A stretch of DNA of 64,000 nt from Polytrichum commune (Eukaryota; Streptophyta; Polytrichopsida; Polytrichales; Polytrichaceae): contig OX485805.1 of the NCBI GenBank assembly GCA_950295325.1, positions 11,532,501 through 11,596,500 on the forward strand, given 5' to 3'. Made by a program: the position numbers and the translations under genes. Position 1 is the stretch's first letter. The number at the start of each line of letters is the position of its first letter. Below the pieces are notes generated by a model. It was given only the letters and a program-made list of their open reading frames with translations. It was not told the DNA's origin and made no database searches. This document shows positions 7,948-34,500 of this stretch, in pieces.

Positions 7948-7977
7948 CACTCCTAGGAAAACATGCGAAATATGACT
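7948..7977 (+). repeat. CACTA-A left terminal inverted repeat
   Basis: Thirty bases matching the reverse complement of 34471-34500 except at position 5 (C for A). Confidence 0.93.
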
Positions 7978-8215
7978 AGGGCCTTATGACCGGATATGAC
8001 TACTGGTTAGAATGCAGTCATCAGTGACCACTTTGGTAACTAGAAATGACTATAGTCATCACATGACTATGATTTTAGTCATATTTTCAGGGGGCCTGAA
8101 TGGGAACTACGTAGGGAACGTGTTCTCCCAATTGTTTTTCTCACGGGCAACCATATGACTAGAATTAGTAGTTAGGTGACTATAGTTTTGGGCAGCCAAT
8201 TGTAGGGGGATTTAG
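7978..8215. promoter_or_regulatory. CACTA-A left subterminal repeat cluster
   Basis: Repeated TGACTA and TAGTCA half-sites, several as palindromic pairs such as ATGACTATAGTCAT near 8046. In En/Spm elements, subterminal repeats like these are binding sites for the TNPA-type protein. Their matching presence at the right end supports that role here by analogy. Confidence 0.75.
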
Positions 8216-8803
8216 GAGTGGGGCATTCATAGTTTTAATGCAATTTTTCTCCTTTGTTTATGTTCAATTTATTCTTTCACTTCTTCTTTCCTTCCTTCAG
8301 TTTATCTCTTCTCGTGATTTTATTTTGTTCCTTTAAGGTTTTCTCCTTAGAATTATATATATTTTTTAATTATTTAAAATTTTGTGAACTTATATGAGTG
8401 TTATTTGAAGTGTTTTTCATTCCAATCTTTTTTTCTTGGAAGCATTTTCCCATCTGTTTTTTTATTTCAGATGTTATGGAAATTTTTGCAATTGCAAACT
8501 CAAACTATCTACAACCACTACAATTCTCTTTGCACATTGTTCAAATACTTGTCGATGTGGATTTTCGTTTGAGCCACTGCACACGCATGTTCTTTATTCA
8601 ATCGGTGACGCTGAAGTTGGTTGGAAGGCAAGTCCAATTGTATATCTTGGCAATGACATAAATGACTACCATTCATAGTGTGTTTGATAGTTGGTCATAT
8701 CCCATCTCTAGATCCTTCTCTACAACAACCACCTTTTTGTTTACATCTCGGGTGGTAAGTCTCTTCCATCTGCTAAAATCATTATTGTCCGATTATTGTC
8801 CGA
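8216..8803. other. CACTA-A, 3' flank of TNP2
   Basis: AT-rich stretch between the subterminal cluster and the TNP2 stop codon. Small plus-strand ORFs here have no recognisable motif. It probably holds the TNP2 3' UTR. No further TNP2 exon was found. Confidence 0.4.
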
Positions 8804-11800
8804 TTATTGTCCATGGTACTGCATGCTGGGCTGCAGGCCTGCATGCTCCTCTACTCTACCTAACTGCACACTTTGCATTTCATGCCTTCCGCCGTCGCTT
8901 GACTCGACTCTTGCACCACGTGGCTGTCGTCGCAAAACAATCTTCCATTCATTATTCTCCTCGTCGTCTACAAAAAATACTTGTTGTACGTGAAGAGGAA
9001 ATGCAAAAGAATCCGCTGAATATGGAATCAGTCGATCAAATCTGAACAATGTGAATCCATATTCGCCGCACTTCATTGTAGCCCGAGCTCCCCTCTTGTT
9101 GGCTTGTGCCCATGTGCAATACAACACCACTACTTCATATTTCCCGTAGTCTACGCTGATAATTTCGTCCACCCACCCTACATACTCTAGATTTGCTGTT
9201 CTCATGTTCTTGTCACTAGAACTAGAATGACAAGATTGGAGAAACGTAGCTGCTACTCCACTGTCACATGTGGACATAGATGCTTCTGCTCCCCGTACTC
9301 GTATATGATTGCCATATGCATACATCGCCTTGTATGCCTTTGCTTCTCGTCTAGGAGGCAACAACAGTGCATGTACATCCTCGGACACATCATTCCCCCT
9401 CGTAGTGTCTTCGGTCACTGCGTTTTGGAACCACGTACTGAAGGATTCTTGTCGTACATCAATGGGATAATCTGCGCGTCTTCCCTTGCTTCGTCTTTGA
9501 ACGGTTTTTTTGGCCTCTTCTCGTCTAGTCATTTCAGTGGCATACCGCCTGCAATATACACATCACCTCAAGACCGTTACTTTCCATACACTGTTAGAAT
9601 ACTACAACATGTACAGCTATGTTGGTCATCTTCTTCATAACTGTGACTATACCTAGTAGTTTTCTTCACTTTTCTGACTGTTTCATATGTCTCGTCTTCA
9701 TAGCTAGTCCTAAAATGAAAAACGATGACTAGACATAGTGCTTTGTTTGCCATGTATTACTACTTAACAATCATATTGCTTAGGTGCATACTTTTTGTAA
9801 TCTTCAAATATTTCAGCGTTGTTGAGCACGAACTCATGAATCCACTGTTGTAGTTGCGGAGACAGTACGCGCCGTCTCCCCTTCCCTTGTAACACTTCGT
9901 CATTTGTACTTGGCTCCTCTTTGTCGTCCCATACACGGCGTGATGTCACAGTGCAGTTTTGCATGTACTCGGTGCAGAATCCAAGTGCCTCCTCCATGAT
10001 ATACCCTCTTGCCATCGACCCCTCCGGTTGTGCTCGTTGCCGTACGTAGCCCTTCAACGTTTTCATATACCGTTCAATAGGGTACATCCAACGTGTGTGA
10101 ACCGGACCACAAATGTCTAACTGCTGCACTAAGTGAATCGGAAGATGTGACATGACATCAAAAAATGCCGGCGGGAAGACCTTCTCCAACATACACATAG
10201 TAACTGCAGTTTCTTCCATCAGATCTTCCATTGTAGATGGATCCACAGACTTTGCACATAATCGCACAAAGATCCTACTTGTACGAATTATTGCCGCACG
10301 AACTTCCTTTGTTAGGAGTGTTCGCACACATAAAGGAAGAATTTGCTGCATCATTATGTGGTAGTCATGTGACTTAAGCCCACGAAGGTCTCCATCAACG
10401 GTTATCCTCTTCGACAACTGCCCCACGTAGTTGCTGGGGGTCTTCAGGTTGCGGATAGTTTTGATAAATTTTGACTTCTCCACCTTTGACAGCACATAGG
10501 GAGCAACTGGTAGTATGATGGTGTCATTTCCACCAGGTTTCGGGTGGAGCTTGGGACGTATCGACGCCTCCTTAAGGTCTAGTCTTACTTTCAATGTATC
10601 TTTCAATCCCCATATTGTCTTCATGATGATTTCGCACAAGTTTTTTTCGCAATGCATTGGATCCAACACATGACAGATCATAAGAGCCTGCAAGCAGTGC
10701 TCGACTCATGTTAGAGCAATTATGCACATCTCCTCACTACGGCATTCTGTGTGTATTCGTACAAATGTAGTCGTGGGTTTGGTGTTCATGACTATACACT
10801 AGTCATATTTTATTTACCGAGTCAGGGGATCCAAACATGTGACTAGCACCACTGATTTCTGCATTACATATAGTCATGCGCTGAGTGCAGATAATCATGT
10901 ATTGATCACATATAGTGTTTTACAGTCAAATAGCAGAAATAATGTAAATTAGTGTAAGGTCTGGAAATGGCTATGGTACACTGACCTGCCAATATGGAAG
11001 ACGAAACAAGCCGGACAACCTCTTCACTCCAGTTGTGTGCACTGGATCGTTGACCCCCCCATGTCTGTTTTCGTTGGAGGCATTTAGCCATTTCTCCCTT
11101 GCATTAGCGTGGCGCACAATGTCTCGACCAGTAAGAGGGCAAGGTAGCGCTCTATTTTCTTCTTTGCCATCAAATGCTCTTTGGAGTCGTCGATACGGGT
11201 GGTTCCTTGTTAGGTATCTCCGATGACCTAAATATAAATTTTTGCCCAGTGCAGTTGATCGACGAGTACTAACATTAGGGCCACATTCAGTGCATCCTTT
11301 GTAACCCTTTGTCACTTGCCCAGAGACAAGACCATACGCAGGATAATCGTGAATGCACCACATCAAAATTGCTTTGAGGACAAAATGCTTGTTTCCACCG
11401 TCAGCCGATACATCGACGGCATTCACACCATGCCACAGTTGCTGCAACTCTTCAATAAGTGGGGCCAAATAGACATCTATATTTTCCGAAGTGACGCTTT
11501 CTTTTCCAGGGATTAGAAGAACCAACATTAGAAAGAAACGTTTCGTGATGAGCCAGGGAGGAAGGTTGTAATTCAACATTATTACTGGCCACGTTGAGTG
11601 ACTTAATGATTGGGTTGAATAAGGGTTCACACCATCTAGGGCCATCCCTAGTCGTATGTTCCTCTCCTCAGAGGCAAATGCCGGATACATAGCATTGATG
11701 TGTTTCCAAGCTTTAGAGTCTGGAACACTCTCCATATTACCGTCCAGTTCTTTCCTTGATGTGTGCCACTTGGTTAACTGTGTAAGTCGGGCACATCGAA

Positions 11801-12428
11801 ACATTCGCAACAGACAGGGTATAAGTGGAAAATGCCTTAGTATCTTCGTTGCCCTTGTACTATTGTCTGATATGTATCGCATCTCCCCACATTTCGGACA
11901 GCTCAAGGCCTCTGCTAACTCGCGTTGAAATAAACAACACCCGTTTCTACATGCATGGATGGAGTTGTAGGAGAGCCCCAAATTCCGTAGGAATTTCTTC
12001 CCTTCCCAGTGGGATTTTGGCAGTTTATTGCCCTTGGGGAGAAGTTTGGTGATCACGTTCAAGATTTCATCTGCACAAGTGTTTGAAACTCCAAATACCG
12101 TGAAGCAATTGAATAGGAGAAGCACTGCAACCAATAGCTTTATTTGCGAGCCTTCGTATAGGGGAATGTTTGATTCCTCAATGACTGTCGTAAGATCTAC
12201 GTTATTGAGGTCATCGTCTTCCAAAGCACTGTCATTTTCGTCCTCATCAATTCCATCATAGGTAGCGGGAGGGATGTTGTCGTATCGTGCAAAACACTTT
12301 GTGACCATCCGTGTAAGCTCAAATTCCTCATAGTCAGTTTGCATGGACGGGATTTCCCCCTGCGCTTCATGACGTTCGTGGAGGTCTTGGCAATCTTGCC
12401 TAGTTTCGTACAGTATTTCAGACTTCAT
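8804..12428 (-). CDS. CACTA transposase TNP2 (three exons)
   Basis: Catalytic transposase of CACTA-A. Hand-assembled exons: 12428-10986, 10687-9792 and 9548-8804, all with GT-AG introns and matching phases, giving about 1027 codons without an internal stop. Exon 1 holds the TNP2 core, including the CPKCGE zinc motif, the MALDGVNPYSTQS block, the WPVIMLNYNLPPW stretch and the ECGP motif. Exon 2 continues at HVLDPMHCEKNL and carries a DUF4218-type region (HLPIHLVQQLDICGPVHTRW). Exon 3 carries the DUF4216-type region (YGKYEVVVLYCTW and YGFTLFRFDRLIP). An in-frame stop lies just upstream of the first codons, so ATG 12428 is taken as the start. The usual N-terminal transposase-associated domain is missing here and lies instead in the neighbouring SET gene. 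The first intron contains copies of the element's TGACTA motif. Confidence 0.88.
10775..10925. promoter_or_regulatory. TGACTA/TAGTCA motif cluster inside TNP2 intron 1
   Basis: Several half-sites (ATGACTATACACTAGTCAT near 10788, TGTGACTAG near 10840, ATAGTCATG near 10870) of the motif typical of the element's termini. They lie within the 298-bp first intron of TNP2. Confidence 0.6.
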
Positions 12429-12443
12429 ACAACATAATAACAA

Positions 12444-14073
12444 CCCCCCAATTATTTACAGGTACGTGAAGTTATCAAGGAAAATGTACACTATCCGGTA
12501 AGCGCCGGGCTTCTATTTTATGGTAGTGTTTAGAAAAAAATATAGTAGCTTTCCTTCTCCTATATTCTTGATGTAAATCTCTCTCAATGTGGTCCCTCTA
12601 AACTTCAGAATAGTATAACTCAAAACTAAATCATCTTCTTCAAGTGAAATTTGGTACACTTATTAAGTATCTTATCAAAAACATTCTTACCAAATTTGAG
12701 CACAATCAGAGTTCATATGCAAAAGTTATGCATTATTTTCTAACTCTAATTACCTAGCATGAATGCTATGATAAAACACCTGGTCTCTAAAACCTTAATA
12801 ACTTCCTATTCTTATGTCCAATAAATTTCAGATTTTAACACAAAATAGATGTGTAAGTTCAAAAGGTGGTGTCAAATTTTGGTATCCATATCTATAACCC
12901 TCTAAAAGATACATATTTTCAAACCTTGCTAGTTTAGTTGGCTTTGTTCCTAGACACCCTTCCCTTCAACTCTTAATAATTTTTTCATGCCAATGACTGA
13001 AGCTCTCAAATTTTTACCACAACTTCCATAACTCATAATAAACAATCCCTCAAATTTTCATATCCATTGAACACTCTGATCATCCATAATTGACAAATCT
13101 CTCACAATAAAGTTTTGCTCAAGTTCATAACCAATAAAACACTACAAGTAGTGCACCTAGTACAATCTAGTCACTCTAAATGCCACACCTCCACATCCTC
13201 TTGTGTAGATGAGCCTCCTAAGCACTTATCCCTCTCAAGATGCTCTAAGCTCCCTCAATCCAACACAAGTAACAACTCCAAAATACTAATGGTCCCCCCT
13301 AAACACTCTTCTAACACCCCTTAAATAGTCTTCCACCTTGCCCCCCTTCGGCCAATAGGAAACCATCGAGGTAAGGTCCTCTAGAACCCCTCCAAGTGGT
13401 TTGCTAATGGATGACCTTTGGGGTTAAAGGTTTCTAGAATCCTTATCCTACTAGAAATAAGAAAGATATGGGGTTAAAGGTTACTAGAACCTTAATCCCG
13501 CTAGAAATAGGGCGTTTGGGGCTAAAGGCTAATCCGGCAAGCCAATAGAAATTTAAAGTAAAAACCTTCTAGAACTCCTAGGTGGTTAGCTATTGGCCCG
13601 CCGGTAAATCCAATCCTACCTACCACATCCATCTACCAATTCATCCGGTCTTCAACTTAAGACCGGTTTTTACCTAACTAAGATTAACTTAAAAATAACG
13701 AAAACAAATAAAATATCTAAATTCTAACTAATAGACCGCCCACATCACGACAACGTTACTTGTATTGCTTACGATAATGTAACAATAGAAAATGAATCTA
13801 AATACTTGTATCATCTATTTGGTAACACTGTCTACAATTTAGTCGTCCATATCATAACAGTGACATCGATTTACTCATCTGTGCAAAATGAGTGAGAACA
13901 ATTTAGTTATCTCTGTAAAGAAAATGATTAGGAGTTAGTCATCAACGCAAAAACAATGACTACGACTACTCCTAAGAGTGAACTATCAGACTCAGCAGTC
14001 ATTGAGCACTTAAGGATTACAACAATTTAGTCACATGGGTTACTGAGATCATTGCTACAAAAGGGACGTCCTG
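12444..14073. other. CACTA-A interval between TNP2 and the SET gene
   Basis: About 1.6 kb without a supported gene. 12500-13740 is AT-rich sequence of different character that may be a decayed insertion. It contains a locally repeated block (13370-13600) around GGGGTTAAAGGT...TCTAGAA. 13830-14050 again contains TGACTA/TAGTCA motifs, just downstream of the SET gene stop. The TNP2 promoter should lie at the left side of this interval. Confidence 0.45.
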
Positions 14074-14960
14074 TCAGTTTAGAGGGTAATATGTGAATAG
14101 TTTCTCTCCCACGTCAATGTCACGTGTTGCTATAGTCATGATGTACCTCCAAGTTTTTGGATTCCAAGGAGTAGGCAATGACACGTATTCCCAAAGTACA
14201 TTTCTTAAATGCTCTCTTCCAATAGAGTTGTTAATGAACCCTGCAACATTTCCATTCAATACATCTCCATCTTGATAAATATTTTTCTTCACGTGTATTG
14301 CATACTTCAGAAATCGGTGGTTTGCTTGATACATACTCTTCAATTCTGCCACTGATAGTTGTTTTCCAATAAATGGCAGTAACTCATCGCCGGCTTTGGC
14401 TGCTTCCATGGCATATAGGCCCCATCCCATGTGGGGATGTGTGGACATCCTAACCTCCCACTTTCTATCCCAAAATGTGACGGGTTTGAATTTTGGGATG
14501 GCGCCTATGCGCCACTGCCCATGGTAGCTATCTGTATGGACAGTATCCACGGACACTTTCTGATTGGGAACCGAACTACTCTCTCCGCTCCTTCGAAGCG
14601 GTAGAGTAGCTGGAATTACTGACTTTAATGCAGTAGTTGCTGCGGCCAGTAGAATAGGTCTCTGTGTTTCCTACACGTTTCATTCCAACAAAGTAAGGCA
14701 GTTGCATTAGTTCCCCATATTATTCACATCCAACATATCATAAAATAGTAACGATAGCATACCACCATTGATCTTTTAAATTCTAGATCTCTCTTGTACT
14801 TCCGTAGATGTGTGCGGATGGTTTTCCGATCCAATATTCTTGCACCCATGCATTTCTTACATGGGCAAGGGTAACTTGTTAGACCTTGCCGGTCTGCTTC
14901 TTTCTCTTCGATGTCCCACAGTTGCAATTGCAAAAGTTCCTCCCGTGATGTCGGATTCAT
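14074..14960 (-). CDS. Transposase-associated zinc domain fused to a SET domain
   Basis: Two exons, 14960-14763 and 14670-14074, separated by a 92-bp GT-AG intron in phase 0, give an intact 264-residue ORF. Residues about 1-62 match the CACTA transposase-associated domain: YPCPCKKC followed by LDRKTIRTHLRKY. Residues about 118-262 form a SET domain: MGWGLYA near the start, LLPFIGKQL, the central GNVAGFINNS, a downstream Asn and Trp, then ATRDIDVGEKLFTYY at the end. SET domains transfer methyl groups from S-adenosylmethionine to lysines, mostly on histones. FINNS replaces the usual FINHSC. No pre-SET or post-SET cysteine cluster is visible. The gene lies inside CACTA-A on the TNP2 strand and faces away from the TNPA-like gene. 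Substrate is unknown. The SET call is firm; the two-exon join is inferred from splice sites and phase. Confidence 0.82.
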
Positions 14961-15221
14961 CGGCTAAAATGCGGTCCACCTAGACAACATAACCACAATT
15001 TTTTAAGAACATGCAACAATACATTGACCTTTAGGAATAAGCTGCTACAATACATTCTATTTTAGGGAGGAGCAGCCAAGAGTACACTCAATTCAGTGAA
15101 ATGTTGTGGATATAGCCATTCAGGTTACGTGGATTACTATTAGTCACGTGGTCACTAAATCTGACTGCATTGAGTCATGTAGTCCCAAGTTTGACTACAT
15201 TTACTTATGCTTGCTCACATA
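14961..15221. promoter_or_regulatory. Central divergent promoter region of CACTA-A, left half
   Basis: Upstream of the SET gene, with motif copies such as ACTATTAGTCACGTGG and TCATGTAGTC around 15120-15200. CACTA-B split this region: the other half continues at 18212. Before that insertion, about 630 bp separated the SET gene start from the plus-strand TNPA-like gene, so it probably served both. Confidence 0.6.
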
Positions 15222-15766
15222 CACTACTAGAATTTCATTGACCAAACCAACAGAAATTCAACTGAAAATTGTTGATTGCGGTTGTTAATTAGGTCGAGTT
15301 GACTCGGTCAGTAATCAACTTGGGATTGTTGATTTGGTCATGTTGATTCGGTCTTTTAGTTGATTTGGTTTTGTTGATTCGGTATTTTCTCTACTCTATT
15401 CAATGGTGATTCAATTGAGCGAGAGAAAATTACCAAGGAAATGAAAGAAAGAAGGTTTGATGATTCCAAAACAGGTGATGAAATACTCTTGAACTTGAGT
15501 GCATAGATCATGACTTTCCTATTCAGCTCAACCAAGAGCAGATCATCAAGGACATAAAAATACATATTGTCATAAATGTAAAAGTCCGATAAAGAATTTT
15601 TTACTTTTTTATTTTACTTTACTTGATTGGAAGGATTATTGATGCTATATAAAGGAGTTTTTCTATTCAACTTGTTATATTTCTACATTTGTTTTATTTG
15701 TTTTATATTTATTTATTTTATTCATTTATAGAAAAATCAAACTGATACCTTAATAGTTGACTTACT

Positions 15767-16090
15767 ATGGAATATAAGTGTGATGTATGTGATAGAATAA
15801 AAAAATCTCAAGCACAGCTTGAGTTTCATTATAAATTTAAAAAACATACTAAAATGGTTGTTAAATCCATATTATATGATACTAAAAATGTTACAACCCC
15901 GGATGAGGTTGTAATACAAAAATTTAGATCACAAGGACTTTCAATTCCAATTGGAATTAGCCATGTGATCTATGTATCTAAAAAGGTGGATTTTTTAGAT
16001 GCCTTCACTGAAATCACTACTCCTGCAATTTTGGTTGAAAATGAAAAAGTAGTGGCAATTATTGATTTCAATTTTTTTCAAATGAATTGA
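15767..16090 (+). CDS. U1-type C2H2 zinc finger ORF in CACTA-B
   Basis: A 107-residue ORF starting MEYKCDVC. Its first 24 residues carry CX2CX12HX5H, the spacing of U1/matrin-type zinc fingers that bind nucleic acid. The rest is an alpha/beta-like stretch (LSIPIGISHVIYVSKKVDF) with no family I recognise. It ends four bases into the next ORF, which lies in a different frame and begins with GGIVERG about 16130. The two may have been parts of one zinc finger-dioxygenase protein that is now frameshifted or spliced. I found no donor site with the right phase. Nothing like it is expected in a standard CACTA element. Confidence 0.55.
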   Translation: MEYKCDVCDRIKKSQAQLEFHYKFKKHTKMVVKSILYDTKNVTTPDEVVIQKFRSQGLSIPIGISHVIYVSKKVDFLDAFTEITTPAILVENEKVVAIIDFNFFQMN

Positions 16091-16883
16091 TAAACATATT
16101 GACCAATGAATGTAGTATATTATATACTGCAGGAGGAATAGTAGAAAGGGGTAAGGAAAATAGTGGTGGGGATATGGTTGTTTTTGGATGGAGAAATTGC
16201 TACGCTGAAGGATTTGGCATATATAAGCAAACTAATAGAAAATGTAGGGAAAAAAATATAAAAATTTCAGCTGCAGATTTAAACACACTAAGTGCACGAA
16301 CAACGACTAGAGTATTCGACGTGTTGAATATTCAAGTGTCATATTGGATTAAAGATTTGGAAAATTTAGTTCGGAAAGAGTTGGGGACACTGTGGGGTCG
16401 TATAGGATATACTCCATTCATAACGATGAGCGTGACAGAGAACTATTGGTCTCCTGACCATATAGATGACAAAGATGGAGGTTTTGGATTTATATTTTGG
16501 GTCCATGAAGGTAATTTTCAATCACAGAATTTATTTTAAAACTAGTATAAAATTATGTCATCGTATGTTATACTAAAAATTTTTAAAAAATTGTTGGATT
16601 CACTAGTTTCTGATGTTGTAATTGAATTCAACATATTTTGCAGAGATTCCAGACCACTCTCGAATTGAACGGGCATAATTCCGTATGAAAGACTATGGCT
16701 TATTTTTTCGTCCAACGCGTGAGACTTTAATATGTTTTGATGCTTAAAAAATAAACCATGGTACAACTGAAAATACAAGGTATAAACAATATGGAGTTGC
16801 CGTCTTAGTAAAGCCCATTGTTTTAAAAGCAGGTTTAAAAGCATTAAAAAAATTGGGATTTTTGGTACTAGTAGAAAAGTACT
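16087..16883 (+). pseudogene. 2-oxoglutarate/Fe(II) dioxygenase-like ORF, decayed
   Basis: The ORF 16087-16539 contains FITMSVTENYWSPDHIDDKD followed by GFGFIFWV: an HxD iron-binding motif followed by a hydrophobic strand. A likely intron starts at the GT after GTCCATGAAG (about 16511) and ends at TTTGCAG (16643). The same frame then continues with DYGLFFRPTRETLICFDA and NHGTTENTRYKQYGVAV, which supply the distal His and an Arg seven residues later. HxD...H...R is the double-stranded beta-helix dioxygenase signature. Two in-frame TAA codons (about 16677 and 16744) break the second exon. This family includes protein, histone and nucleic acid oxidases. The overall look recalls the TET/JBP-like proteins carried by some fungal and algal transposons, but I cannot place it firmly. 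Confidence 0.55.
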
Positions 16884-17289
16884 AGACTTAGGTCATAACA
16901 CTATTTATTAAAAAAATTGAATATTTTGTTTGTAATTAAGATACAAAAGACATTGGTGAAATTTCTTTTTGAATATAGATATTTAAAAGTTTATCAAATA
17001 AACGATAGTACAATCTAAATTTAAGTTTTAAATTATGATATTTGTTTTGCTTTGAGAGTCAATCTTCACTTATCTTTATTTCTAAACGTAGTGTTCACAT
17101 AAACTTAAGATAATTCTAAGTATTAATTGTATAGTTAATTTTTTAATTTTTTAATTTGAATTTTGTTACTTTTATGAGCTTGAAGATAGTATATAAAGAC
17201 TTTTGACTTGTTGAAATTATATTATTTCAGTTGATTGAATATATTTTTACACATATATTATTTGTACACCCTACTTGAAGATTAATACC

Positions 17290-17822
17290 CTTTTAATTAC
17301 TAAAAACCGCTATTCTTGTTTGAGTATGTTTTACCTCTGACTATGTTTTTTGCAAAAACCGTTATTTATGTAAAAACATTATACCTATGAGTATGTTTTA
17401 TGCAAAAACCGCTATTTATGTAAAAACATTATACCTATGAGTATGTTTTTTTGCAAAAACCGCTATTTATGTAAAAACATTATACCTCTGAGTATGTTTT
17501 TTGCAAAAACCGCTATTTATATAAAAAAATTATACCTATGAGTATGTTTTTTCCAAAAGCCGCTATTTATGTGAAAACATTTTACCTCTGAGTATGTTTT
17601 TTACAAAAACCGCTATTTATGTAAAAACATTATACCTCTGAGTATGTTTTTTGCAAAAACCGCTATTTATGTAAAAACATTATACCTCTGAGTATGTTTT
17701 TTGCAAAAGCCGCTATTTATGTGAAAACATTTTACCTCTGAGTATGTTTTTTACAAAAACCGCTATTTATGTAAAAACATTATACCTCTGAGTATGTTTT
17801 TTGCAAAAACCGCTATTTATGT
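17290..17822 (+). repeat. 50-bp minisatellite in CACTA-B, about 10 copies
   Basis: Tandem unit CGCTATTTATGTAAAAACAT + TATACCTCTGAGTATGTTTT + TTGCAAAAAC, repeated about ten times with small changes. The first copy is the most diverged. It lies downstream of the dioxygenase-like ORF and does not code for protein. Confidence 0.9.
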
Positions 17823-18211
17823 AATTCTTCAGAAGTTCACATTCTCATATTTTGATGATCCTTCCCATACAAATGGTATTAAACCTTAGGAAAAAATTTA
17901 AAAATGGATGGATGAAAAACATCAGTGCATGTGGTGCAGGGTTAGAACTTTATACCTTTCTGTGAATACAAAAAAAATAAAAAAACAAAAAAAATTATTT
18001 CCTTTGAATATCGCCACATCAGCATATCCAAATCTAAAAGCCCATTAATTTGTCGATGAAAATGTACAGTACGTAATCTAACAGAAATAAGAACACTCAT
18101 TTTGTTCAAATTAACAAAATATTAGAATTTTGTTGAAATGGTTATTGACGTACACAGTTCAACAAAAAATAGTTGCTTACTTGTTGATTTGGACATCATT
18201 TTCTAGTAGTG

Positions 18212-18400
18212 ATATGACTACCTGTAGTCACTTTGTCCCTACATCTGACTAGATTTAGTCATGTAGTCCTAAATATGACTACCTTTAGTCATGCAGTCAC
18301 ACAAGTCACAAATCTGACCCTAAATAGACAGCCATGTGTCTGTGACGACTATTATGACTACATAATTCAGTAATCAATGAGCACCCCCCCAATTAACGAT
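18212..18400. promoter_or_regulatory. Central promoter region of CACTA-A, right half
   Basis: Contains palindromic motif pairs ATGACTACCTGTAGTCA (18214-18230), TGACTAGATTTAGTCATG and ATGACTACCTTTAGTCATG upstream of the plus-strand TNPA-like gene. It was contiguous with 15221 before CACTA-B inserted. Confidence 0.6.
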
Positions 18401-18588
18401 GAAACCCTAATTCGGTCTTATTGCGTTGTCACTCGCTTCTACATCCCCGCACCCAAGACTAAACCATTTCTCTTGGTGCCATTGTGTAGGTCTTACCTTA
18501 TAGTTGCAAGGAGGCAGAGAAATGGCGACGTCCACGGCCGAAGCGGTACCTTCACGTCGTCTTCGTGGCAAGGGGGTGTGCGGCCGCC

Positions 18589-18779
18589 ATGGTGAAGTCC
18601 AAGTGGTCGACGGAGAGCAGGAGCAGCATCTCAAAGAGTAAGGAGTCGGCGACGTCCTCAGCGCAGGAGACGTCTGAGGCGGAGCAGTCGAGCGAGGAGT
18701 GGGCGAGCAGCAACAGCGGCGGCGACAACAAAATCGGCTCCAGCAGCGAGGACTCCGCGGCGAAGGCGCAGGCGGTGAG
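18589..18779 (+). pseudogene. TNPA/Ptta-like gene of CACTA-A, 5' exon, cut by the Gypsy insertion
   Basis: An ORF from ATG 18589, Ser/Lys/Glu-rich, reads up to the GTGAG target duplication (18775-18779) and stops making sense inside the LTR. With the retrotransposon and one GTGAG removed, it continues in frame at 30427 with a basic region. An out-of-frame ATG lies upstream at 18521. The role of this N-terminus is unknown; acidic and basic low-complexity tails are common in such proteins. Confidence 0.65.
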
Positions 18780-19480
18780 TGTGAGCCCAAAAGGGTGCCC
18801 ACATTTAGTCTTAGACCCTTGAAACGTTAGTTGATGCACTTTGAAGTAGCATGTTACTTCACAAAAATATAAAAAGAGTGAAATGTTAGTCTTAGAAGTA
18901 CCATGTTGTAAGAGGCTAGGATGTGAGTTGTTATTGTGTTTTTACCTTCGGAAGGATTTGAGTGAATGAGGATAGGTAAGGAGAACTTGGATTGAGTAGT
19001 TAATGAGTAGGCTAGTACAAATGGATGGAGACAACCAAAGTGACTCAAGAGGCAAGTGCATTCGAATTGGGATGAATGGAGGATCACATGGAGCGCACAA
19101 GTGGACCACCTCATCATGGCCACTTAATGGGGAAGGCCCAAGGAAGAATGCAAGGTGGAGGATAAGCAAATTCTCAAAGCACCAATCAAATCACGAGTTA
19201 AGCATCGTGGTTTGAATTAAGTGGTGAGCGACGATTTGGGAAAGTAAGGGGAGAAAGTTATGGCGGCGGAAAGCGAAGGAGGCTAAGTTTGGGTTGAAGC
19301 ATCCCAAGTTTGGTAAAGTGTGGTAGGTAGAAAGCCAAGGCTAGTTAAATGTTCGAATTAGGATCCTTGTTGATCATTTGAGGGAGGAAGGCTTAGAAGA
19401 TAGGATTGGCGCCTACTAAGTAGGAGGAAATCTCAAGGGCTTATCGTGAGCCTTGAGGGTGCTCACCCCCTCAAGCTTAC

Positions 19481-19487
19481 TATATAA
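19481..19487 (+). promoter_or_regulatory. TATA box of the 5' LTR
   Basis: TATATAA sits just right of an imperfect palindrome (CTTGAGGGTGCTCACCCCCTCAAG pattern, about 19452-19475) and about 700 bp into the LTR. The same site is at 28930-28936 in the 3' LTR. Probably the U3/R promoter. Confidence 0.6.
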
Positions 19488-20008
19488 TCCCTCATTCTTC
19501 CCTCACTCATCCTCTCTTTCCTTTGTGCTCCAAGGCACCCCACGAGTTATAAGTGTGGGTGTGGGAAGCCATATTGGAGCACATGTGTGTGCTTAGTTTT
19601 TAGTTTGAGAGCCAAGGCTTGTTAGCCTTGAAGAGGGCTTGACCTCTTGGTAGAATTAGTGTTGACGTGAAGGATTTTAAAGTTAATTCATGATTCCAAT
19701 TTGTGGTACTTAAAGTTCATGTTTTGAATACACGTGGTTGCAAGTTCCATGTTTAAGAGTTGAGCACTTGATGTTGTGATGAGTGCAAAAATATACTTGT
19801 GTGGATTAGTTAGTCTTAGTGAAGTTAGGAAATTCTCTCTCCCCCTCTCCTCTCTAGGATTTTAGGATTTTAGGATTAGAGAAGAATTGTGTGATTAGAA
19901 AGGGGTTGTTAGTAGAATTAGGGAAATTAGGTAGGAAGATTAGTTAAGGGCTTGAATAATTAGTGAGGTAGTTGGGGATTACAACTACAAAGTTGTGGGT
20001 TTATGAAG

Positions 20009-20330
20009 GAGCTGGGTTTATGAAGGAGCTGGGTTTGTTTAGTTAGAAAGTAAAGAGCTGGGTTTATGAAGGAGCTGGGTTTGTTTAGTTAGAAAGTAAA
20101 GAGCTGGGTTTATGAAGGAGCTGGGTTTGTTTAGTTAGAAAGTAAAGAGCTGGGTTTATGAAGGAGCTGGGTTTGTTTAGTTAGAAAGTAAAGAGCTGGG
20201 TTTATGAAGGACCTGAGTTTGTTTAGTTAGAAGCTAAGGAGCTGGGTTCATGAAGGAGCTGGGTTTATGAAGGAGCTAGGTTTATGTAATTAGAAAGTAA
20301 AGAGATGGGTTCATGAAGGAGCTTAGTAGA
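20009..20330 (+). repeat. 46-bp tandem repeat in the 5' LTR (four full units plus variants)
   Basis: Unit AGTTAGAAAGTAAAGAGCTG + GGTTTATGAAGGAGCTGGGT + TTGTTT. Four near-identical full units and diverged partial units are present. The 3' LTR has three, which exactly explains the 46-bp length difference between the LTRs. Confidence 0.9.
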
Positions 20331-21018
20331 TAGCCTACCTAATTAGCTCATAGACAAGTAGTTAGTTACATTATGCTAGTTAGTGTTATGGTGGCTTCCA
20401 CAAGTAAATGTATTTGAGATTGACTATAGAGAATAGTGTTTTTTTTAACACTTGCATCCTCTCTTTAAAAATAAACCACGTGCACAAATTAATGGAGAAT
20501 GTGGAGCACTCTCGCGATGGCAAGACAAAGGAAGCAAAGACCAAAGGTGCGAGGGAGAGATTGACATAAGTCACATAAGTATTTCTTAATACTTAAAGGC
20601 TTATGTACGGTATGGAGACACCAAGTGAGACCTCTTATAGTAGCGATACGGAATACACAAGTGATAGTTCAAGTGGTAGTATAGAGTCAACGGCACGGAC
20701 TCCATTTAGGAGAGGGATATCCTTAAGGGCTTGTGTAGCTAAAGCGGCCGGATGGACGTTAGAAGCAAACAAAGACAAAATAGCATCCGAGCATAAGGAG
20801 GTTAAAATAACATAGTTAACTTGTGCATTCTCCACATACGTATTGAAATTGTACATTGAGTTGTTAAAAGTGAAATTCCAGTTAAATCCAAGACCACTTG
20901 AAGGGTGAACCTTGCACTATGGACTCATCCAAGTCCAAATCCAATACCGCGGAGGAATGTGAGCCCAAACCCACTACTCGGACTACGGACGCTTAAGGGT
21001 GGGGGGTTTGGCCTCACA

Positions 21019-21042
21019 TAATTGGTGCGTCCGCCGGGAGCG
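21019..21042 (+). other. Putative primer binding site region of the Gypsy element
   Basis: TAATTGGTGCGTCCGCCGGG follows directly after the 5' LTR. The position and the TTGGTGC...CCGGG character suit a tRNA primer binding site, but I could not name the tRNA. The sequence just before the 3' LTR (GTCGCCAATTA) is nearly its inverted complement over the first 9-10 bases. Confidence 0.5.
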
Positions 21043-21927
21043 AAGCGGAAGGTAGTTACAAGACTTGGAGGCGACTAGGAGACTTGGAGGCAACTAGGAA
21101 AAATTGGAGACACAAACTTGAGAGAAGGGAAGGAGCACCCGAAACTCGGTAAGTATTCTCTCTTTGGGTTACATTTGAATTCATTGTATTTCAACTATTC
21201 CTTGGAATGAATTGCATTGTCAATTACGCAAAGTCATTTTTGAGGAAGGAGCGCGGCGAAGGTACGTCCTCAACCTTTTTGGGGATTTGCTAAGAACTTA
21301 AAAGGAACCTATAACCGAGTAGCTCATTAAAACATTAGAGGGTAAATTCACCTTAGGACATTGAACTTTGACACTCACCTCGGGGTGAGTCTCAAAGTTT
21401 TGGGAGTTGTCATTTCATGCTCTAGATTAAATTAATATTTCACAAAGTTTATGGTGTTGTTACATTGAGTCACGATTGAGGGGAGTGCTAACTCACAGGG
21501 GGATGCGATTGCTCAAGGTATGTTTATTTCTTCAAAGTGAAGTCATTAACTAATTAAGGAATGCCTTTTGTACTCGTGATTGTTGTTATCCGTTGTAGAG
21601 GGTAATTCCCGAATTGTGGATGGTGTGAGAAGTTGAAGGGTGAAGCCTCGACTTTTAACATAATCTACTCGGAAGGTCACCCCCTCACAATCGGTATTGT
21701 GGTGAGTGTTAATTTGCGGGAAGGTGCGGAGGTGATGCTCTGACTTAACCAAAAAATTAACATGAACATGCCTATCCCCTATTGGGATTCTTTCACCTAA
21801 GTGGGCTTGCAGGTTCTTTTCCTCACCTCCTAAAAAAATTATAACCACACCAAGACAAGTGAAAATATTAAGAGGGGAATTGCTAGGATTATGTGTGGTC
21901 AAGTGAGGGTCGATCGATTCTTATGGA
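21043..21927 (+). other. Gypsy 5' leader
   Basis: About 0.9 kb between the primer binding site and gag. A 118-codon antisense ORF (21902-21546) has no recognisable motif and is most likely chance. The region probably contains the packaging signal, which I cannot identify. Confidence 0.5.
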
Positions 21928-24900
21928 ATGCAAGGTAGGACTCGCTCACAAAAACCAAGTTTAATAGTAGGACTAGAGAAATCTACTCGAAAGAGGCGGT
22001 CCTCTAAAATCAGTGATAGATTAGAACAAGATAATGTTAGAATAGAGAGTTGTTTGAACGTCGAACCTAGGACTAGGTCAATTCTAGACACCTTAGAACT
22101 TGGAGCTCAACTTGAAGAGGAGATCACTCCCTCCAAATTGAGTGGTGAAACTTCTTCGGAAAATTACACACTTAGAGAAGAATTCTCGGTAGAAGTTGAT
22201 AGGGGATTGTTGAATAGTTCACCGGTCACCATGGCCGAGGAACGGGGGATGGATCCACCACCCATACCCCCAATTCCGCCCATACCTCCTATACCTCCAA
22301 TAGACCCATTGGTTAGGCCAAGAGGCCTACCAATGGTGGTTCCACAAAATTTAGCGGCGATGGATATGCCATCTCATCTCCCTAAATTTTATGGGACCAA
22401 GGATGAGGACCCCTCTCGGCACATGGAACGGTATATCGAACGGTTGGCTAGCTTCCTCATAACCGACCCGGGTTATTGGTTAGTGTGGTTTCCTACCACT
22501 CTAGAGGGGGAAGCCTATGAATGGTATCGGGATCATGCCGAGGGACATTTTAGGGGATGGGAACAATTACAAAGGGAGTTTCTTAACGAATTTAGGCCGG
22601 AAGTGGGTCAAAGTACCGCATTAAGGGCATTGTCGTCATTGAAGCAAGGAAGGGAGGAAGAAATTTCGGCTTACATTAGGAGGTTTGATTTAGTGTGCAC
22701 TAGATTTGTGGGTACCATGCTCAACGACGACACGCTAAAGCAATTTTTCATTCAAGGGTTTTTTAAGTCCGGAACTATTAGGGGTGTTCTAGAAAGGAAT
22801 CCCTTGACCTTGGCGGATGCCAAGCGTGCGGCTAGAGATATTGAAAACTTGGATAAAGATCACGAAAGGCTATGGAGAAGGGAGGATGAATTGATCCCAC
22901 AATTCATCCCCATACGCCCTAGGGTGGTAGCGGTAGAACCCGCTAAGTATGAGAACCAAATTCCATATGCCATTGTGGACACCGGTCCCCGACCTTTAGC
23001 GGTTAGGGAACCGGCACCTCTTTTGGCACTACCGGCCCCTAGAACGGATCCACACTTGGAGGAGGTTGAGAGAAGACTAGGTGCTAGCCAACTAGGATTC
23101 CAAGAGGCTATGATAAAACAAATGCAAAGCCTCACGGATCAAATGTCATTAATGATCCGGAGTCAACAACCGGGGCCTCCACCCCCGGTTGAGTCGGGTA
23201 GGCATTCTTCCGGATTATGGTGTGTCCAATGTGGCCAACCGGGCCACACGCGTCAATTTTGTAGAAGTGGACAAAACCGTGACCAAAGAGGAAACGGTAA
23301 CCCACCTCGACAAAATCAACGAGGTCAAGCGCCACCTCACTATGGAAATGGAAGCAATAGAGGACCACAACCTAGAGGGCAAGGTGGCCAAAATTTAGAG
23401 AAGAAGGAATTTCATCCCTTTTGTGGAAGGTGGCACGCTCAAGGACAATGTTGGTCCGAAGGTCAAGAGTTTAATTGTAGCAATTGTGGAGGAAGTCATC
23501 CCTCGGATACGTGTCGCCAACCGGACAAAATAATTAATGTCCCTTACCCGGTGGCTAATCCACAACAACAAGCAAGGGATAATATGCGAGGTGCTAGGCC
23601 ACAAGGAGTACCGGCCAATGAACTTAGGCCACCTAACTTATACTATGACCATAGTAATGCTAGGCAAACTTTTCATCCACCGGCGGGCTTGCAAACTACA
23701 ACCGGTTACATTCCAATACAAAATAGACAAGGAGTTCCACCTAATGGTAGTAACGGGAGACAAGCGCCTCCAACGGATCCGGGACCATCTAACTCCCAAG
23801 ATGTTAGGTTCATGGATGGAGTGTTGGAGGCCACATGTGATGACATGCTTCCTCTCCCAACGAGAATTGGAGAGGAGCAAAGTCAATGGCCTCCTCACAC
23901 CAATGCTATTACATATGAGTTAGTGAAGGGTAAGGGTGTGGTTGAAGAAGCACCTGCACTAGCGGTAACTACTAGGGCTAGGAGAGGGGATGCCCCGTTG
24001 GAGGTAGGAATAGGAGAGCAAGGAAATTACTCTTCGGATGAAGAGATTAATCTCTCCGAGTTGGATAGGGTAGCTAGAAGAGCTACTAAGGATGTGGAGA
24101 GGGAAAATATAATTTTACAAGATAGGGAGAGGACTAATGCGGTACATGACTTGGATAATAGCGATGTGGGTGAATGGGAAGGACCGGGGGTTCCCGTAGA
24201 CGAATTCGACGTAGTGGGTAATTCTAAGGTGGAAAGATCTACCGGGTACGACTTGTGGGCGGACCTTAGTACACTCAAGGCGGATATTACTTTCGGCCAA
24301 CTATTGGAAATTTCACCCACGGCAAGGAAAACATTAAAGGAGGGAATGCCGGTACACAAGAGGATGAGGAAGGTGAAAGCTAAAATAGCCGCTAGGATCC
24401 AATCACAAGGTGGAAGAGACGTGAAAGCTATAGAAATAGAAGTTGTTATAGTAGATAAGGTGGTTCCTAATGTGCTAGTCGACGGAGGGAGTAGTCTAAA
24501 TATACTACCGGAGGATACTATGAAAAAATTGGGACTTGGACTCACGGGGCCTTCACCTTTGGTCATAAATATGGCAAATCAAAGTTCGACTACGCCTTTG
24601 GGGATGATCAAGGATTGTAGAATGACTACGGGAGGTGAGGAGTACTTGGTCACCTTCCATGTCATTAAAATGCACTCCAACAAGGACACCTTCCCCATTT
24701 TGCTAGGTAGGCCTTGGTTGCGGATGGCGAATGCTATGGTCAATTGGGGTGGACCTAAACCATCCATCACTTATGGTCCGGAGGGTAATAGGGTCATAGT
24801 GTCCATTGGTTCATTAGAAGGATGGATGAAGAAGGAGATGCATTTGCCATTGGAGAAGGAAATTGATGACTTAAACGAGAATGAGATTGGCAAGGCATTG

Positions 24901-27900
24901 GTGGGAGTCGTCCATCCCGAAGGTCAAAGGGTTGTTATAGATTCGGGCTCGGGAAGTCTAGGTCCTAATTTTTACAATTATGGGGATAATGGGGATTATG
25001 CCCAATGGCTAAGGGAGTACCCCGAGTCCGAGGTTGATGTAATGGTTACATTTCACCAAGTAGGCTTAGGGAGTGAATTTCCTAGTGTTAGTTTAGGAGA
25101 GGGCTCATTGTTGGAGCCATGTGAGGTGCTCACCGAGGAAGAGTGGGTTAGCGGTGGGTTAACACCTTGGGTAGATGACGTGGAAGAGGGTGAGGTTAGT
25201 TTAATTCATGTAGATGGGACTCAAGAGGAGGATGTGATTATTGAGTCATCGAAATTGGAGGAGCCTTTACATTTCAAGACCACGTCTACGGGGATAGTTG
25301 TAGGTCAAGATGTGAAAGATTACCCCAATGTGCCTTCCGATTGGTATCGGAACAAAGAGGAACAAGCACATGTGTCGGAAGCGGATTGGCGGTACGTGGA
25401 TGTGAAATTAAAGAATGGAAAAACCCGACAAATGAAGATGGGCTCCAAATTGGGGGAGAAAGAGGTTAGGGAGTATAGCAATTTGGTGGATGAGTTTAGT
25501 GATACTTTTGCATGGTCCTACGATGAGCTTAAGGGAATTCCTAGGGAAATGGTAGAGCACCGGATTCCTTTAATTCCGGGGGCGAGGCCAATTAGACAAA
25601 AGGAGAGGAGGATGAATCCTCAATTGCAATTGTTGGTGAAAGCGGAATTGGAAAGGTTATTGAAGGCCGGGTTTATCAAGCCGGTGGAAATCACGGATTG
25701 GGTTTCTCCTATGGTCTTAGTAAAGAAAAAAAATGGGAAATTAAGGGTTTGTGTCGACTATAGGAAATTGAATTCGTGCACACAAAAGGATCACTTCCCC
25801 TTACCTTTTATCACCTTGTTGCTTGAGGAGGTTGGAGGTCATTCGCGATATACCTTTATGGATGGGTATGCGGGTTATAATCAAATTTCCATAGCCCTCC
25901 AAGATATCCATAAAACGGCTTTTACTACACCTTGGGGTATTTTTGTGTGGGTAGTGATGCCATTTGGGTTATGTAATGCCCCGGCTACTTTCCAACGATT
26001 AGTAATGTATATCTTCACCGACTTGTTGTTCAAATCCATGACCGTCTTTGTGGACGATTTTAGCACACAAAGTAATGTGGATGATCACCTACATTGTGTT
26101 AGAGAGGCATTGGTTAGGTGTAGGAAGATGAGGTTAGCATTGAACCCGGATAAGACATTTTTGGGAGTGAATAAGGGAGTGTTGTTGGGTTATGTTGTTA
26201 GTGAGAAAGGTAGAGAACCCGATCCGGATAAGATTGCGGCCATAAGCGACTTGGCAACTCCAACCAATTCCAAGGGGATCTCTAAGTTGTTAGGACATGT
26301 GGGATGGTACCGGGAACTTATTCCTAATTTTTCAAAGATAGCGGTGCCCATTACCCATTTGCTCAAAAAGGATGTCAAATTCGAGTGGACGGATGCTTGT
26401 CAAAAAGCCTTTGAGGAATTGCGGGATAGGTTGAGCACCTATCCGGTGTTGATACCACCCAATTGGGGTAAACCTTTTCACGTCTATTGTGATGCTAGTA
26501 ATGTGGCAATAGGGAGTGCGCTTTGTCAAGCAACGGGAGAAAAAGAGAAGGATCAACCTATAGCTTATGCGAGTAAGCAATTGACCCCCGCCGAAAGAAA
26601 CTACTCTACAACGGAGAGGGAGTGCCTAGCCATGGTGTTTTCCGTTAAAAAGTTTAGACATTACCTCATGTGCAACCCGGTTGTATTTTTTGTTGACCAC
26701 ATGGCTATCAAGTATCTAATTAACAAGGCGGAGTTAAGTGGTAGGTTAGCTAGGTGGGTTTTGTTATTAGAAGAATTCGACTACACGGTGGAATATAAAC
26801 CGGGTCGTATGCATTTACAAGCGGACCACTTGTCTAGGTTGTCGGAGGAGATAGGAAAAAATCCGGTAAATGATATGTTAGTAGATGATAGCCTCTTTGT
26901 GGTCACTTCTACACCGGCGTGGTATGCGGGCATAGTGGAATTTCTAACAACCCACAAGTTGCCCAAAGAGTGGACAAAAGAAGAGAGAAGGAAGGTGAGG
27001 GTAAATAGTAGGCAATTTGTTGTAGTGGGCCATAGGTTGTTTAGAAGGGGGTCCGATGGTATTTTACGACGATGCGTGTCAAAAACGGAGGTTGAAGCGA
27101 TTTTAATCGCTTGCCACGATAGCGCTTGCGGCGGTCACTTCTCGGGTCAACTCACCGGGCAAAAAATACTTAGAGCGGGCTACTTTTGGCCTACACTATT
27201 TAAGGACGCCCATGACTATGTAAGGAAATGCGACGCTTGCCAACGGTATGCCCGAAACGACCTTAGAATGGAGATGCCTTTACATGTATCATTACCCTTA
27301 ATTCCTTTCGAAAAATGGGGCATCGACTATGTGGGTGAGGTCCATCCCCAATCTTCAAAAGGAATGAAATATATTGTGGTGGCAACCGAATACCTCACCA
27401 AGTGGGCGGAAGCCAAAGCGGTTAAGACCGACACGGCGGAACACGCGGCAACATTTATGTACGAAAACATAATTTCGCGGTTCGGGGTGCCGAAGATCCT
27501 AGTAAGCGATAGGGGTACTCACTTTTTGAATGACTTGATTCGAGAGATGACAGAGAAATTTAAAATTGATCACCGGAAGACTACTCCCTACCACCCACAA
27601 ACCAATGGACAAACGGAAAGGGTTAACGGAATTTTGGTGAGTATACTACGCAAGACGGTTATAGACTCGAAGCGGGATTGGGATACGAAACTAACGGCGG
27701 CACTTTGGGCATACCGTACAACCTATAAGGTAACTACGCGTGCTACACCATTTTCCTTAGTCTATGGTCTTGAAGCGACACTACCAATCGAATATGAAGT
27801 CGAGTCACTTAGGGTGGCCGTGAGTACGAGACTTACCGAAAGTCAATCCTTACGAAATCGACTAACCGATTTGGAAGCACTTGACGAAGGGAGGAGAATG

Positions 27901-28167
27901 GCGGCTCAACATATTGAGGCAATCCAAAGAAGGAGAAAGATTACTTTCGACAAACGACATAAGAGAAGGGCCCTAACACCGGGAATGATGGTCATGATTC
28001 AAGACGCACGAAAGCTTGAATTTCCGGCGAAATTCAATGCGGTATGGTTAGGACCTTACCTTGTCTATGAGGTCTTTCCTAATAATTCAATTCAATTGGA
28101 AACGTTGAATGGTGAGCTCTTTCCTACCCGTACATCGGGAAGTAGATGTAAGGAGTACCGAGCTTGA
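21928..28167 (+). CDS. Gypsy gag-pol polyprotein
   Basis: A single 2079-residue ORF, no frameshift between gag and pol. Gag core at about residues 150-330; CCHC knuckle CVQCGQPGHTRQFC near 431; a second knuckle-like CSNCGGSHPSDTC near 517. Aspartic protease active site VLVDGGSSLNIL near 851, with DGGS in place of DTG/DSG. Reverse transcriptase from VDYRKLN (about 1276) to the catalytic FVDD (about 1374), where YxDD is usual. RNase H with CDAS, the TTERE Glu, VDH and QADHLS all present (about 1520-1640). Integrase with a HX6H/CX2C zinc region (about 1730-1772) and a catalytic triad GIDY, SDRG and QTERV spaced D-35-E (about 1800-1896). The C-terminus has a GPY-like block (WLGPYLVYEV) and no chromodomain. 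Every catalytic residue that I checked is present, so the protein may be functional. Confidence 0.95.
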   Translation: MQGRTRSQKPSLIVGLEKSTRKRRSSKISDRLEQDNVRIESCLNVEPRTRSILDTLELGAQLEEEITPSKLSGETSSENYTLREEFSVEVDRGLLNSSPVTMAEERGMDPPPIPPIPPIPPIPPIDPLVRPRGLPMVVPQNLAAMDMPSHLPKFYGTKDEDPSRHMERYIERLASFLITDPGYWLVWFPTTLEGEAYEWYRDHAEGHFRGWEQLQREFLNEFRPEVGQSTALRALSSLKQGREEEISAYIRRFDLVCTRFVGTMLNDDTLKQFFIQGFFKSGTIRGVLERNPLTLADAKRAARDIENLDKDHERLWRREDELIPQFIPIRPRVVAVEPAKYENQIPYAIVDTGPRPLAVREPAPLLALPAPRTDPHLEEVERRLGASQLGFQEAMIKQMQSLTDQMSLMIRSQQPGPPPPVESGRHSSGLWCVQCGQPGHTRQFCRSGQNRDQRGNGNPPRQNQRGQAPPHYGNGSNRGPQPRGQGGQNLEKKEFHPFCGRWHAQGQCWSEGQEFNCSNCGGSHPSDTCRQPDKIINVPYPVANPQQQARDNMRGARPQGVPANELRPPNLYYDHSNARQTFHPPAGLQTTTGYIPIQNRQGVPPNGSNGRQAPPTDPGPSNSQDVRFMDGVLEATCDDMLPLPTRIGEEQSQWPPHTNAITYELVKGKGVVEEAPALAVTTRARRGDAPLEVGIGEQGNYSSDEEINLSELDRVARRATKDVERENIILQDRERTNAVHDLDNSDVGEWEGPGVPVDEFDVVGNSKVERSTGYDLWADLSTLKADITFGQLLEISPTARKTLKEGMPVHKRMRKVKAKIAARIQSQGGRDVKAIEIEVVIVDKVVPNVLVDGGSSLNILPEDTMKKLGLGLTGPSPLVINMANQSSTTPLGMIKDCRMTTGGEEYLVTFHVIKMHSNKDTFPILLGRPWLRMANAMVNWGGPKPSITYGPEGNRVIVSIGSLEGWMKKEMHLPLEKEIDDLNENEIGKALVGVVHPEGQRVVIDSGSGSLGPNFYNYGDNGDYAQWLREYPESEVDVMVTFHQVGLGSEFPSVSLGEGSLLEPCEVLTEEEWVSGGLTPWVDDVEEGEVSLIHVDGTQEEDVIIESSKLEEPLHFKTTSTGIVVGQDVKDYPNVPSDWYRNKEEQAHVSEADWRYVDVKLKNGKTRQMKMGSKLGEKEVREYSNLVDEFSDTFAWSYDELKGIPREMVEHRIPLIPGARPIRQKERRMNPQLQLLVKAELERLLKAGFIKPVEITDWVSPMVLVKKKNGKLRVCVDYRKLNSCTQKDHFPLPFITLLLEEVGGHSRYTFMDGYAGYNQISIALQDIHKTAFTTPWGIFVWVVMPFGLCNAPATFQRLVMYIFTDLLFKSMTVFVDDFSTQSNVDDHLHCVREALVRCRKMRLALNPDKTFLGVNKGVLLGYVVSEKGREPDPDKIAAISDLATPTNSKGISKLLGHVGWYRELIPNFSKIAVPITHLLKKDVKFEWTDACQKAFEELRDRLSTYPVLIPPNWGKPFHVYCDASNVAIGSALCQATGEKEKDQPIAYASKQLTPAERNYSTTERECLAMVFSVKKFRHYLMCNPVVFFVDHMAIKYLINKAELSGRLARWVLLLEEFDYTVEYKPGRMHLQADHLSRLSEEIGKNPVNDMLVDDSLFVVTSTPAWYAGIVEFLTTHKLPKEWTKEERRKVRVNSRQFVVVGHRLFRRGSDGILRRCVSKTEVEAILIACHDSACGGHFSGQLTGQKILRAGYFWPTLFKDAHDYVRKCDACQRYARNDLRMEMPLHVSLPLIPFEKWGIDYVGEVHPQSSKGMKYIVVATEYLTKWAEAKAVKTDTAEHAATFMYENIISRFGVPKILVSDRGTHFLNDLIREMTEKFKIDHRKTTPYHPQTNGQTERVNGILVSILRKTVIDSKRDWDTKLTAALWAYRTTYKVTTRATPFSLVYGLEATLPIEYEVESLRVAVSTRLTESQSLRNRLTDLEALDEGRRMAAQHIEAIQRRRKITFDKRHKRRALTPGMMVMIQDARKLEFPAKFNAVWLGPYLVYEVFPNNSIQLETLNGELFPTRTSGSRCKEYRA

Positions 28168-28228
28168 CTAGGCAACTTACCCTTGGAGCAAGAGATGTTT
28201 GGATTCATCCCCCGATGGTCGCCAATTA
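28168..28228 (+). other. Gypsy region before the 3' LTR, lacking a clear polypurine tract
   Basis: Between the pol stop and the 3' LTR lie 61 bases ending CCCCCGATGGTCGCCAATTA. A purine-rich tract directly next to the LTR is expected for plus-strand priming, but none is seen. The closest is GGAGCAAGAGATG about 35 bases upstream. Confidence 0.5.
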
Positions 28229-33400: not shown

Positions 33401-33546
33401 AAGTGCAAAAGAGCAAACTCGACGAGTACCTTCTCTATTGCAGCATAGATTTGGACGACCCACCGATCACGAAAATAGGACAAGCAGTAGACAGCTTTAT
33501 ATTGTGGCCCACCCAATTCCTAAAGCATCCATGTGAACTTAATTAG
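30422..33546 (+). pseudogene. TNPA/Ptta-like (Transposase_24-type) gene of CACTA-A, main part
   Basis: Open segments at 30422-30667 (basic, nuclear-signal-like), 30680-31084, 31328-32290, about 32353-32590, 32870-33120 and 33226-33546 are separated by GT-AG-compatible gaps. The segment ending at 32290 matches the plant En/Spm Ptta type: a long charged region, then KTKRYQLKKALLAGRTKPKH, a HWVSLSKLI block, and ENRTQLKRPS followed by a Gly-containing end. The final exon carries KIGQAVDSFILWPTQFL, a pattern common at the C-terminus of such proteins. Two in-frame stops (TAA 31646-31648, TAG about 32459), plus the Gypsy insertion in exon 1, make this copy defective. Its product type binds the subterminal repeats in known elements. 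Here the introns contain the same repeats. Confidence 0.72.
31150..31327. promoter_or_regulatory. TGACTA/TAGTCA motif cluster inside an intron of the TNPA-like gene
   Basis: Three palindromic copies, including ATGACTAGTTGTAGTCATA (31194), ATGACTACCTATAGTCAC (31231) and ATGACTAGTTGTAATCA (31257), within the interval 31085-31327 that lies between two exon segments. A further weaker cluster is in the interval 32590-32720. Confidence 0.65.
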
Positions 33547-33599
33547 GCTAAAATAGGGCACGATTCAATTTGGTTAGAACAATGTGGATATTAGAGCTT

Positions 33600-34470: not shown

Positions 34471-34500
34471 AGTCATATTTCGCATGTTTTCCTAGTAGTG
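34471..34500 (-). repeat. CACTA-A right terminal inverted repeat
   Basis: Reverse complement begins CACTACTAGGAAAACATGCG, matching 7948-7977 with one mismatch. Followed by GGA. Confidence 0.93.

Follow-up and report, generated by a model that had tools for sequence, protein, structure and literature searches.

Does a plant transposon encode its own chromatin-modifying protein? The question is raised by a 64,000-nucleotide stretch of the Polytrichum commune genome (GCA_950295325.1, contig OX485805.1, positions 11,532,501 to 11,596,500), referred to here as the window. An element of subfamily A occupies 7948..34500 on its minus strand, and inside it an exon encoding a SET domain lies between a short first exon and the TNP2 transposase frame. 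The original prediction, made from the sequence alone, was that the two exons form an intact gene of a CACTA element, fusing a transposase-associated domain to a SET methyltransferase domain. The element is indeed CACTA/EnSpm, having CACTA-type terminal inverted repeats (TIRs) identical at 29 of 30 bases, a 3-bp target-site duplication (TSD; TCC/TCC), and a TNP2 frame (Transposase_21, PF02992; 10971..12455, minus strand) with 246.3 bits against a cut-off of 28.6. It belongs to a CACTA lineage of several subfamilies that carries the SET fold, a conclusion about which we have practically no doubt.

The two-exon reading frame

Exon 1 (14763..14960, minus strand) encodes a Transpos_assoc-like domain with a CxCxxC motif and ends in a phase-0 donor. 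A GT-AG intron of 92 nt (14671..14762, minus strand; donor 14762, acceptor 14671) separates it from exon 2, the SET exon (14074..14670, minus strand), which contains the stop codon. As predicted, joining the two gives a stop-free open reading frame (ORF) of 264 amino acids; further open splice pairs are also possible. The C-terminal half is likewise confirmed as SET, the domain (14086..14427, minus strand) matching the Pfam profile PF00856 with 29.8 bits (cut-off 22.4; E value 8.5e-7) and structure scores agreeing on the fold. Among other copies the SET score reaches 41.3 bits in L017 and 39.0 bits in L024 (L-numbered loci denote genome copies, WIN the window copy).

Residues at the start of the SET exon are similar in subfamilies B and C and there is no common ATG; therefore, an upstream exon is required. 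With exon starts set from reading frames, the exon 1 donor is in phase 0 and reads GT in 34 of 35 copies; at the SET exon, a phase-0 acceptor reads AG in 32 of 35. From these sequence features we strongly infer that exon 1 is spliced to the SET exon. The exon 1 domain itself was identified in part: it aligns to PF13963 over profile positions 29-59 of 74, at 24.2 bits, below the curated cut-off of 27.7. Three other copies score 20.7-23.1 bits, one of the three scoring slightly higher to U-box. These sub-threshold values, in the window as in other copies, weigh against an outright assignment to Transpos_assoc. The SET exon terminates in its stop codon before TNP2, and the arrangement is thus not a single SET-transposase polypeptide of the SETMAR type.

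Copies across the genome and in outside sources

The search covered 407.8 Mb, of which 406 Mb is in seven large contigs. Scoring extended to 150 of 412 exon 1 candidates, 150 of 643 TNP2 candidates and 150 of 155 SET candidates, and the family counts are consequently lower bounds. At least 119 matches to the SET profile were obtained, 91 of those listed being 320-360 bp long. Exon 1 lies within 5 kb of a SET match in at least 63 cases, always upstream and on the same strand, while TNP2 does so in at least 64 cases, always downstream and on the same strand; 0.44 SET-TNP2 pairs would be expected within this distance by chance. Both neighbours are present for at least 49 of the 119 SET matches listed, and the further copies with the same order sought by the original prediction are therefore at hand. 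Neither neighbour was found within 5 kb of 41 of the 119, a set which by eye includes host-type genes and fragments. Conversely, SET is missing from the neighbourhood of 87 of the 150 scored exon 1 matches, and TNP2 lies within 5 kb of 30 of these 87.

Among the 17 fused copies that were fetched (L009-L025), TNP2 is in place in 16, L015 having none within its stretch. L017 is a complete subfamily B element of 9608 bp with its own TIR and a CTT/CTT TSD; for L010, L025 and L027, a search of 6 kb of upstream sequence did not reveal the 5' end. The SET exons of subfamilies B and C share 40-46% identity with that of the window, and subfamily D, in which the order is the same, has a SET exon 45-52% identical to a B or C query. 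A complete open SET frame is present in 25 of 39 SET-bearing copies chosen by hand.

Outside sources yielded 78 homologues with an alignment as query and two with the fused window protein alone; the 78 carry no host label, and a spread over plant species is not readable from them. Compared with 30 genome rows, three are at least 95% identical, 28 fall at 80-95%, 29 at 60-80% and 18 below 60%. In a tree built from the 57 homologues of sufficient length and a minority of the copies of this genome, several homologues form lineages without a sampled genome copy.

Several trivial origins were rejected. A chance ORF or a false SET match is ruled out by the profile, the fold, the genome-wide order and selection, and a one-off rearrangement by the number of SET matches flanked by both partners. 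A scan of IMG/VR for a viral origin returned 37 pattern matches, none of them a confirmed relative.

Selective constraint on the SET exon

Five well-diverged pairs give the SET exon a ratio of nonsynonymous to synonymous substitution (dN/dS) of 0.15-0.24, and a sixth pair gives 0.14. Three B1-B2 pairs have values of 0.15, 0.17 and 0.19 (with 0.24, 0.27 and 0.30 as upper bounds), a D pair has 0.24, and A pairs have 0.23 and 0.14. For TNP2 the B1-B2 value is 0.16 in two pairs, and exon 1 shows 0.11-0.20 in three pairs. The young groups weigh in the other direction, being weakly constrained, with a pooled dN/dS of 0.46 for C-C and 0.84 for D-D. The pooled B2-B2 comparison, also young, gives 0.47, and individual young pairs give 0.81 (WIN-L011; interval 0.31-3.82) and 0.35 (L024-L051). 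Looser values of this kind are as decaying copies would give.

CACTA elements are known to capture host sequence (PMC8616336, PMC13317346; available portions of both), and the SET exon could in principle be a host fragment caught passively, as in Pack-CACTA elements, with no function for the element. We regard this as very improbable. The exon occupies the same place, in the same phase, in four subfamilies, its frame remains open in the majority of the chosen copies, and the dN/dS values of the well-diverged pairs are not those of a passenger free of constraint at the level of the element.

The first exon and its possible second partner

TNP2 was originally described as lacking the transposase-associated domain. 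This is correct for the contiguous ORF; at the mRNA level the splice sites suggest that exon 1 is shared, and if TNP2 does share it the remark is wrong at that level. The window holds a possible phase-0 acceptor for a TNP2 exon at 12422..12424 (minus strand; exon start 12422), placed from its counterparts in L009 and L011 and from the window sequence. Phase-0 acceptors near the TNP2 start read CATGCAG/GAG in B, TTGGCAG/GGA in D, CTGCAG/GAC in C, and GAAG or GGAG before TCT in A (the slash marks the exon start).

Exon 1 also occurs in a SET-less sister lineage of CACTA elements, represented by loci L026 and L027.

The most economical model gives a single first exon two alternative partners, SET or TNP2, and the splice sites make it the probable one. 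The upstream ATGs and the absence of a sharp onset of coding constraint lower our confidence in it. An in-frame ATG precedes the proposed acceptor in 10 of 13 copies (in the window it lies just upstream), phase-0 AGs are common around the site, and the site is altered in L025, L033 and L037. No sharp onset of coding constraint was seen there in A or B, identity over the 30 nt upstream versus that downstream being 60-70% versus 71-72% in B and 83-87% versus 87-88% in A. The ATGs and the lack of a sharp onset also favour the alternative that exon 1 is exclusive to the SET gene, the start of TNP2 lying at an ATG of its own or in an unseen upstream exon. We consider this rather unlikely, as L018, L034 and L038 have no in-frame ATG before the acceptor, and as exon 1 stands directly before TNP2 in the SET-less L026 and L027, leading to it at a phase-0 acceptor.

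Proposed function

Under the model of a shared first exon, SET would be a cassette exon between the first coding exon, with its Transpos_assoc-like domain, and the TNP2 exon. A transcript that retains the SET exon would encode a protein of about 264 amino acids, and one that skips it would encode Transpos_assoc-TNP2, the usual transposase layout. The common domain, predicted to target DNA, would bring each of the two proteins to the ends of the element itself. There the SET protein might methylate lysines of chromatin proteins in the vicinity, helping the element to stay expressed or to move; its part would be an accessory one, as is that of TNPA in En/Spm. Marking of its own or target chromatin by the element had been put forward as a possibility in the original prediction. 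We give this explanation as a whole (cassette exon, shared first exon, accessory chromatin role) about an even chance. That the effect would be anti-silencing and not repressive is our leaning, at somewhat below even odds. Slightly more tentative is the idea of one DNA-targeting exon put to two uses, with the transposase to move and with SET to edit chromatin at the ends; it includes a self-contained, sequence-guided editor under transposase-like selection, in at least four subfamilies and with relatives outside this genome.

Much depends on whether the SET protein is catalytic. In canonical SET lysine methyltransferases the NHS motif belongs to the S-adenosylmethionine pocket and a C-terminal tyrosine is catalytic. 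At the NHS position each of the 30 genome rows has N-S-S or N-N-S, and none of the 78 outside homologues contains NHS. This counts against an enzyme, and in a SET domain without the canonical NHS catalysis cannot be assumed. The same substitutions would suit a protein that has lost catalysis and serves as a binding module, for example as a regulator at the element ends which competes with or assists the transposase; selection cannot tell binding from catalysis. Set against such a module are the GWGL motif, kept in 30 of 30 rows, the terminal tyrosine, present in 28 of 30 and thus in every row that reaches it, and the PR/SET proteins, which are active without NHS. We judge the SET protein to be probably an active methyltransferase, and a pure binding module to be unlikely. 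Somewhat less likely again is an active enzyme that writes repressive marks, like the E(z) or SUV39 enzymes, and dampens the element or its rivals. Comparison with six host-type SET loci (L001-L006) gave two weak matches, the better being of the E(z)-like KFANHS type, and the SET of Helentrons has been reported as Clr4-like (PMC4067079, in the accessible text); both would fit a repressive writer. The closest solved relatives by profile, on the other hand, are enzymes specific for lysine 4 of histone H3 together with ASH1L, although by structure score SETD8 and others do equally well.

Should the SET protein prove active, a plant transposon would possess a targeted histone methyltransferase of its own, and a small, defined protein would make it possible to test how transposons and silencing contend with each other. 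If the first exon is indeed shared, the destinations of transposase and methyltransferase could be cleanly compared.

Comparison with known systems

SETMAR, a primate host gene in which SET and a mariner transposase form a single protein, was cited originally as the precedent. It does combine a SET domain with transposon sequence; it differs in being a single host gene with one protein and not a mobile family. The precedents proved to be wider, taking in HarbingerS and MuDR elements of Phytophthora (PMC12730594) and Helentrons (PMC4067079), as far as the available passages of these sources go. The HarbingerS and MuDR elements are, like the present one, DNA transposons carrying a SET histone methyltransferase gene; they differ in transposase superfamily and in their oomycete host, and the accessible text mentions no fusion to a transposase-associated domain (PMC12730594). 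Helentrons, such as the Phytophthora proto-Helentron-Pi, are mobile too and carry SET as an additional ORF; they differ in being rolling-circle elements in which SET is a separate ORF, reported to resemble Clr4 (PMC4067079, in part). The window element encodes a CACTA-type TNP2 and belongs to none of these groups.

Within CACTA elements, alternative splicing in En/Spm yields TNPA and TNPD, of which the former binds subterminal repeats; transposition requires both proteins (PMC2613891, available passages). In this respect the proposed SET protein resembles the products of En/Spm tnpA/tnpD and soybean Tgmt*, where alternative splicing supplies an accessory protein in addition to a tnp2-type transposase. 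It differs from TNPA and the Tgmt* mosaic product, which are described as DNA-binding, SET not being mentioned in those passages (PMC2613891). CACTA-ULP1 families such as Cactavine of grapevine offer another plant CACTA with a host-type protein-modifying domain, ULP1 in place of SET (PMC2528002, in part). As the original prediction had supposed, no described CACTA family with this arrangement, and no CACTA element with SET, was found in the titles, abstracts and passages of the open-licence literature searched. The terms 'SET domain' and 'methyltransferase' are absent from the accessible text of a 2026 review of plant transposon gene capture (PMC13317346).

With CACTA added to Harbinger, MuDR and Helentron, SET occurs in several unrelated kinds of mobile element, which points to the repeated gain of chromatin control by transposons, and a CACTA lineage with a conserved SET exon suggests that such elements bring their own chromatin-modifying tool.

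Origin of the SET exon

In a TNP2 tree of 28 rows (midpoint root, long branches, subfamily D left out), the SET-less L026, L027, L060 and L061 group with subfamily A (97/92), and B and C fall outside. The simplest reading, which we offer tentatively, is a single gain of SET followed by later loss. Separate captures in each subfamily are possible.

Element borders, downstream frames and nested insertions

The 5' TIR of the window element (34471..34500, minus strand; 30 bp, beginning CACTA) has the sequence CACTACTAGGAAAACATGCGAAATATGACT at 34500 and is flanked by TCC at 34501-34503. The 3' TIR (7948..7977, minus strand; 30 bp, beginning CACTC) has a one-base variant of it at 7948, next to TCC at 7945-7947, and the border is the same in sister copies. 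Repeats resembling TAGTCATG were noted by eye near the element ends. Downstream of the SET exon, in the same direction as it and TNP2, lie the remaining transposase-gene frames, DUF4218 (9764..10705, minus strand; 135.1 bits) and a DUF4216-like frame (8804..9562, minus strand; 30.0 bits, just under the cut-off of 30.6).

The length of 26.5 kb is due to other elements nested inside. One is a CACTA-like element of 2990 bp (15222-18211; TIR CACTACTAGAA, TSD TAT), in which AT-rich tandem units can be read at 17280-17830; its 3' border is common to L009, L011 and L014, indicating insertion before that subgroup spread. A young long terminal repeat retrotransposon occupies approximately 18780-29800. 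Sampled 300-bp stretches of it are 100% identical (18780-19079 with 28229-28528, and 20052-20351 with 29455-29754), and a gag-pol-like frame of 2086 codons (21907-28167) lies between the repeated stretches. Between SET and TNP2 the window copy carries about 1.3 kb of inserted sequence (approximately 12474-13752) that sister copies, L009, L011 and L014 among them, lack. Elsewhere in the window, minus-strand frames at 48444-57904 resemble by eye the exons of an SNF2-type chromatin-remodelling gene, and among them is a frame of 962 codons with internal repeats (55016-57904).
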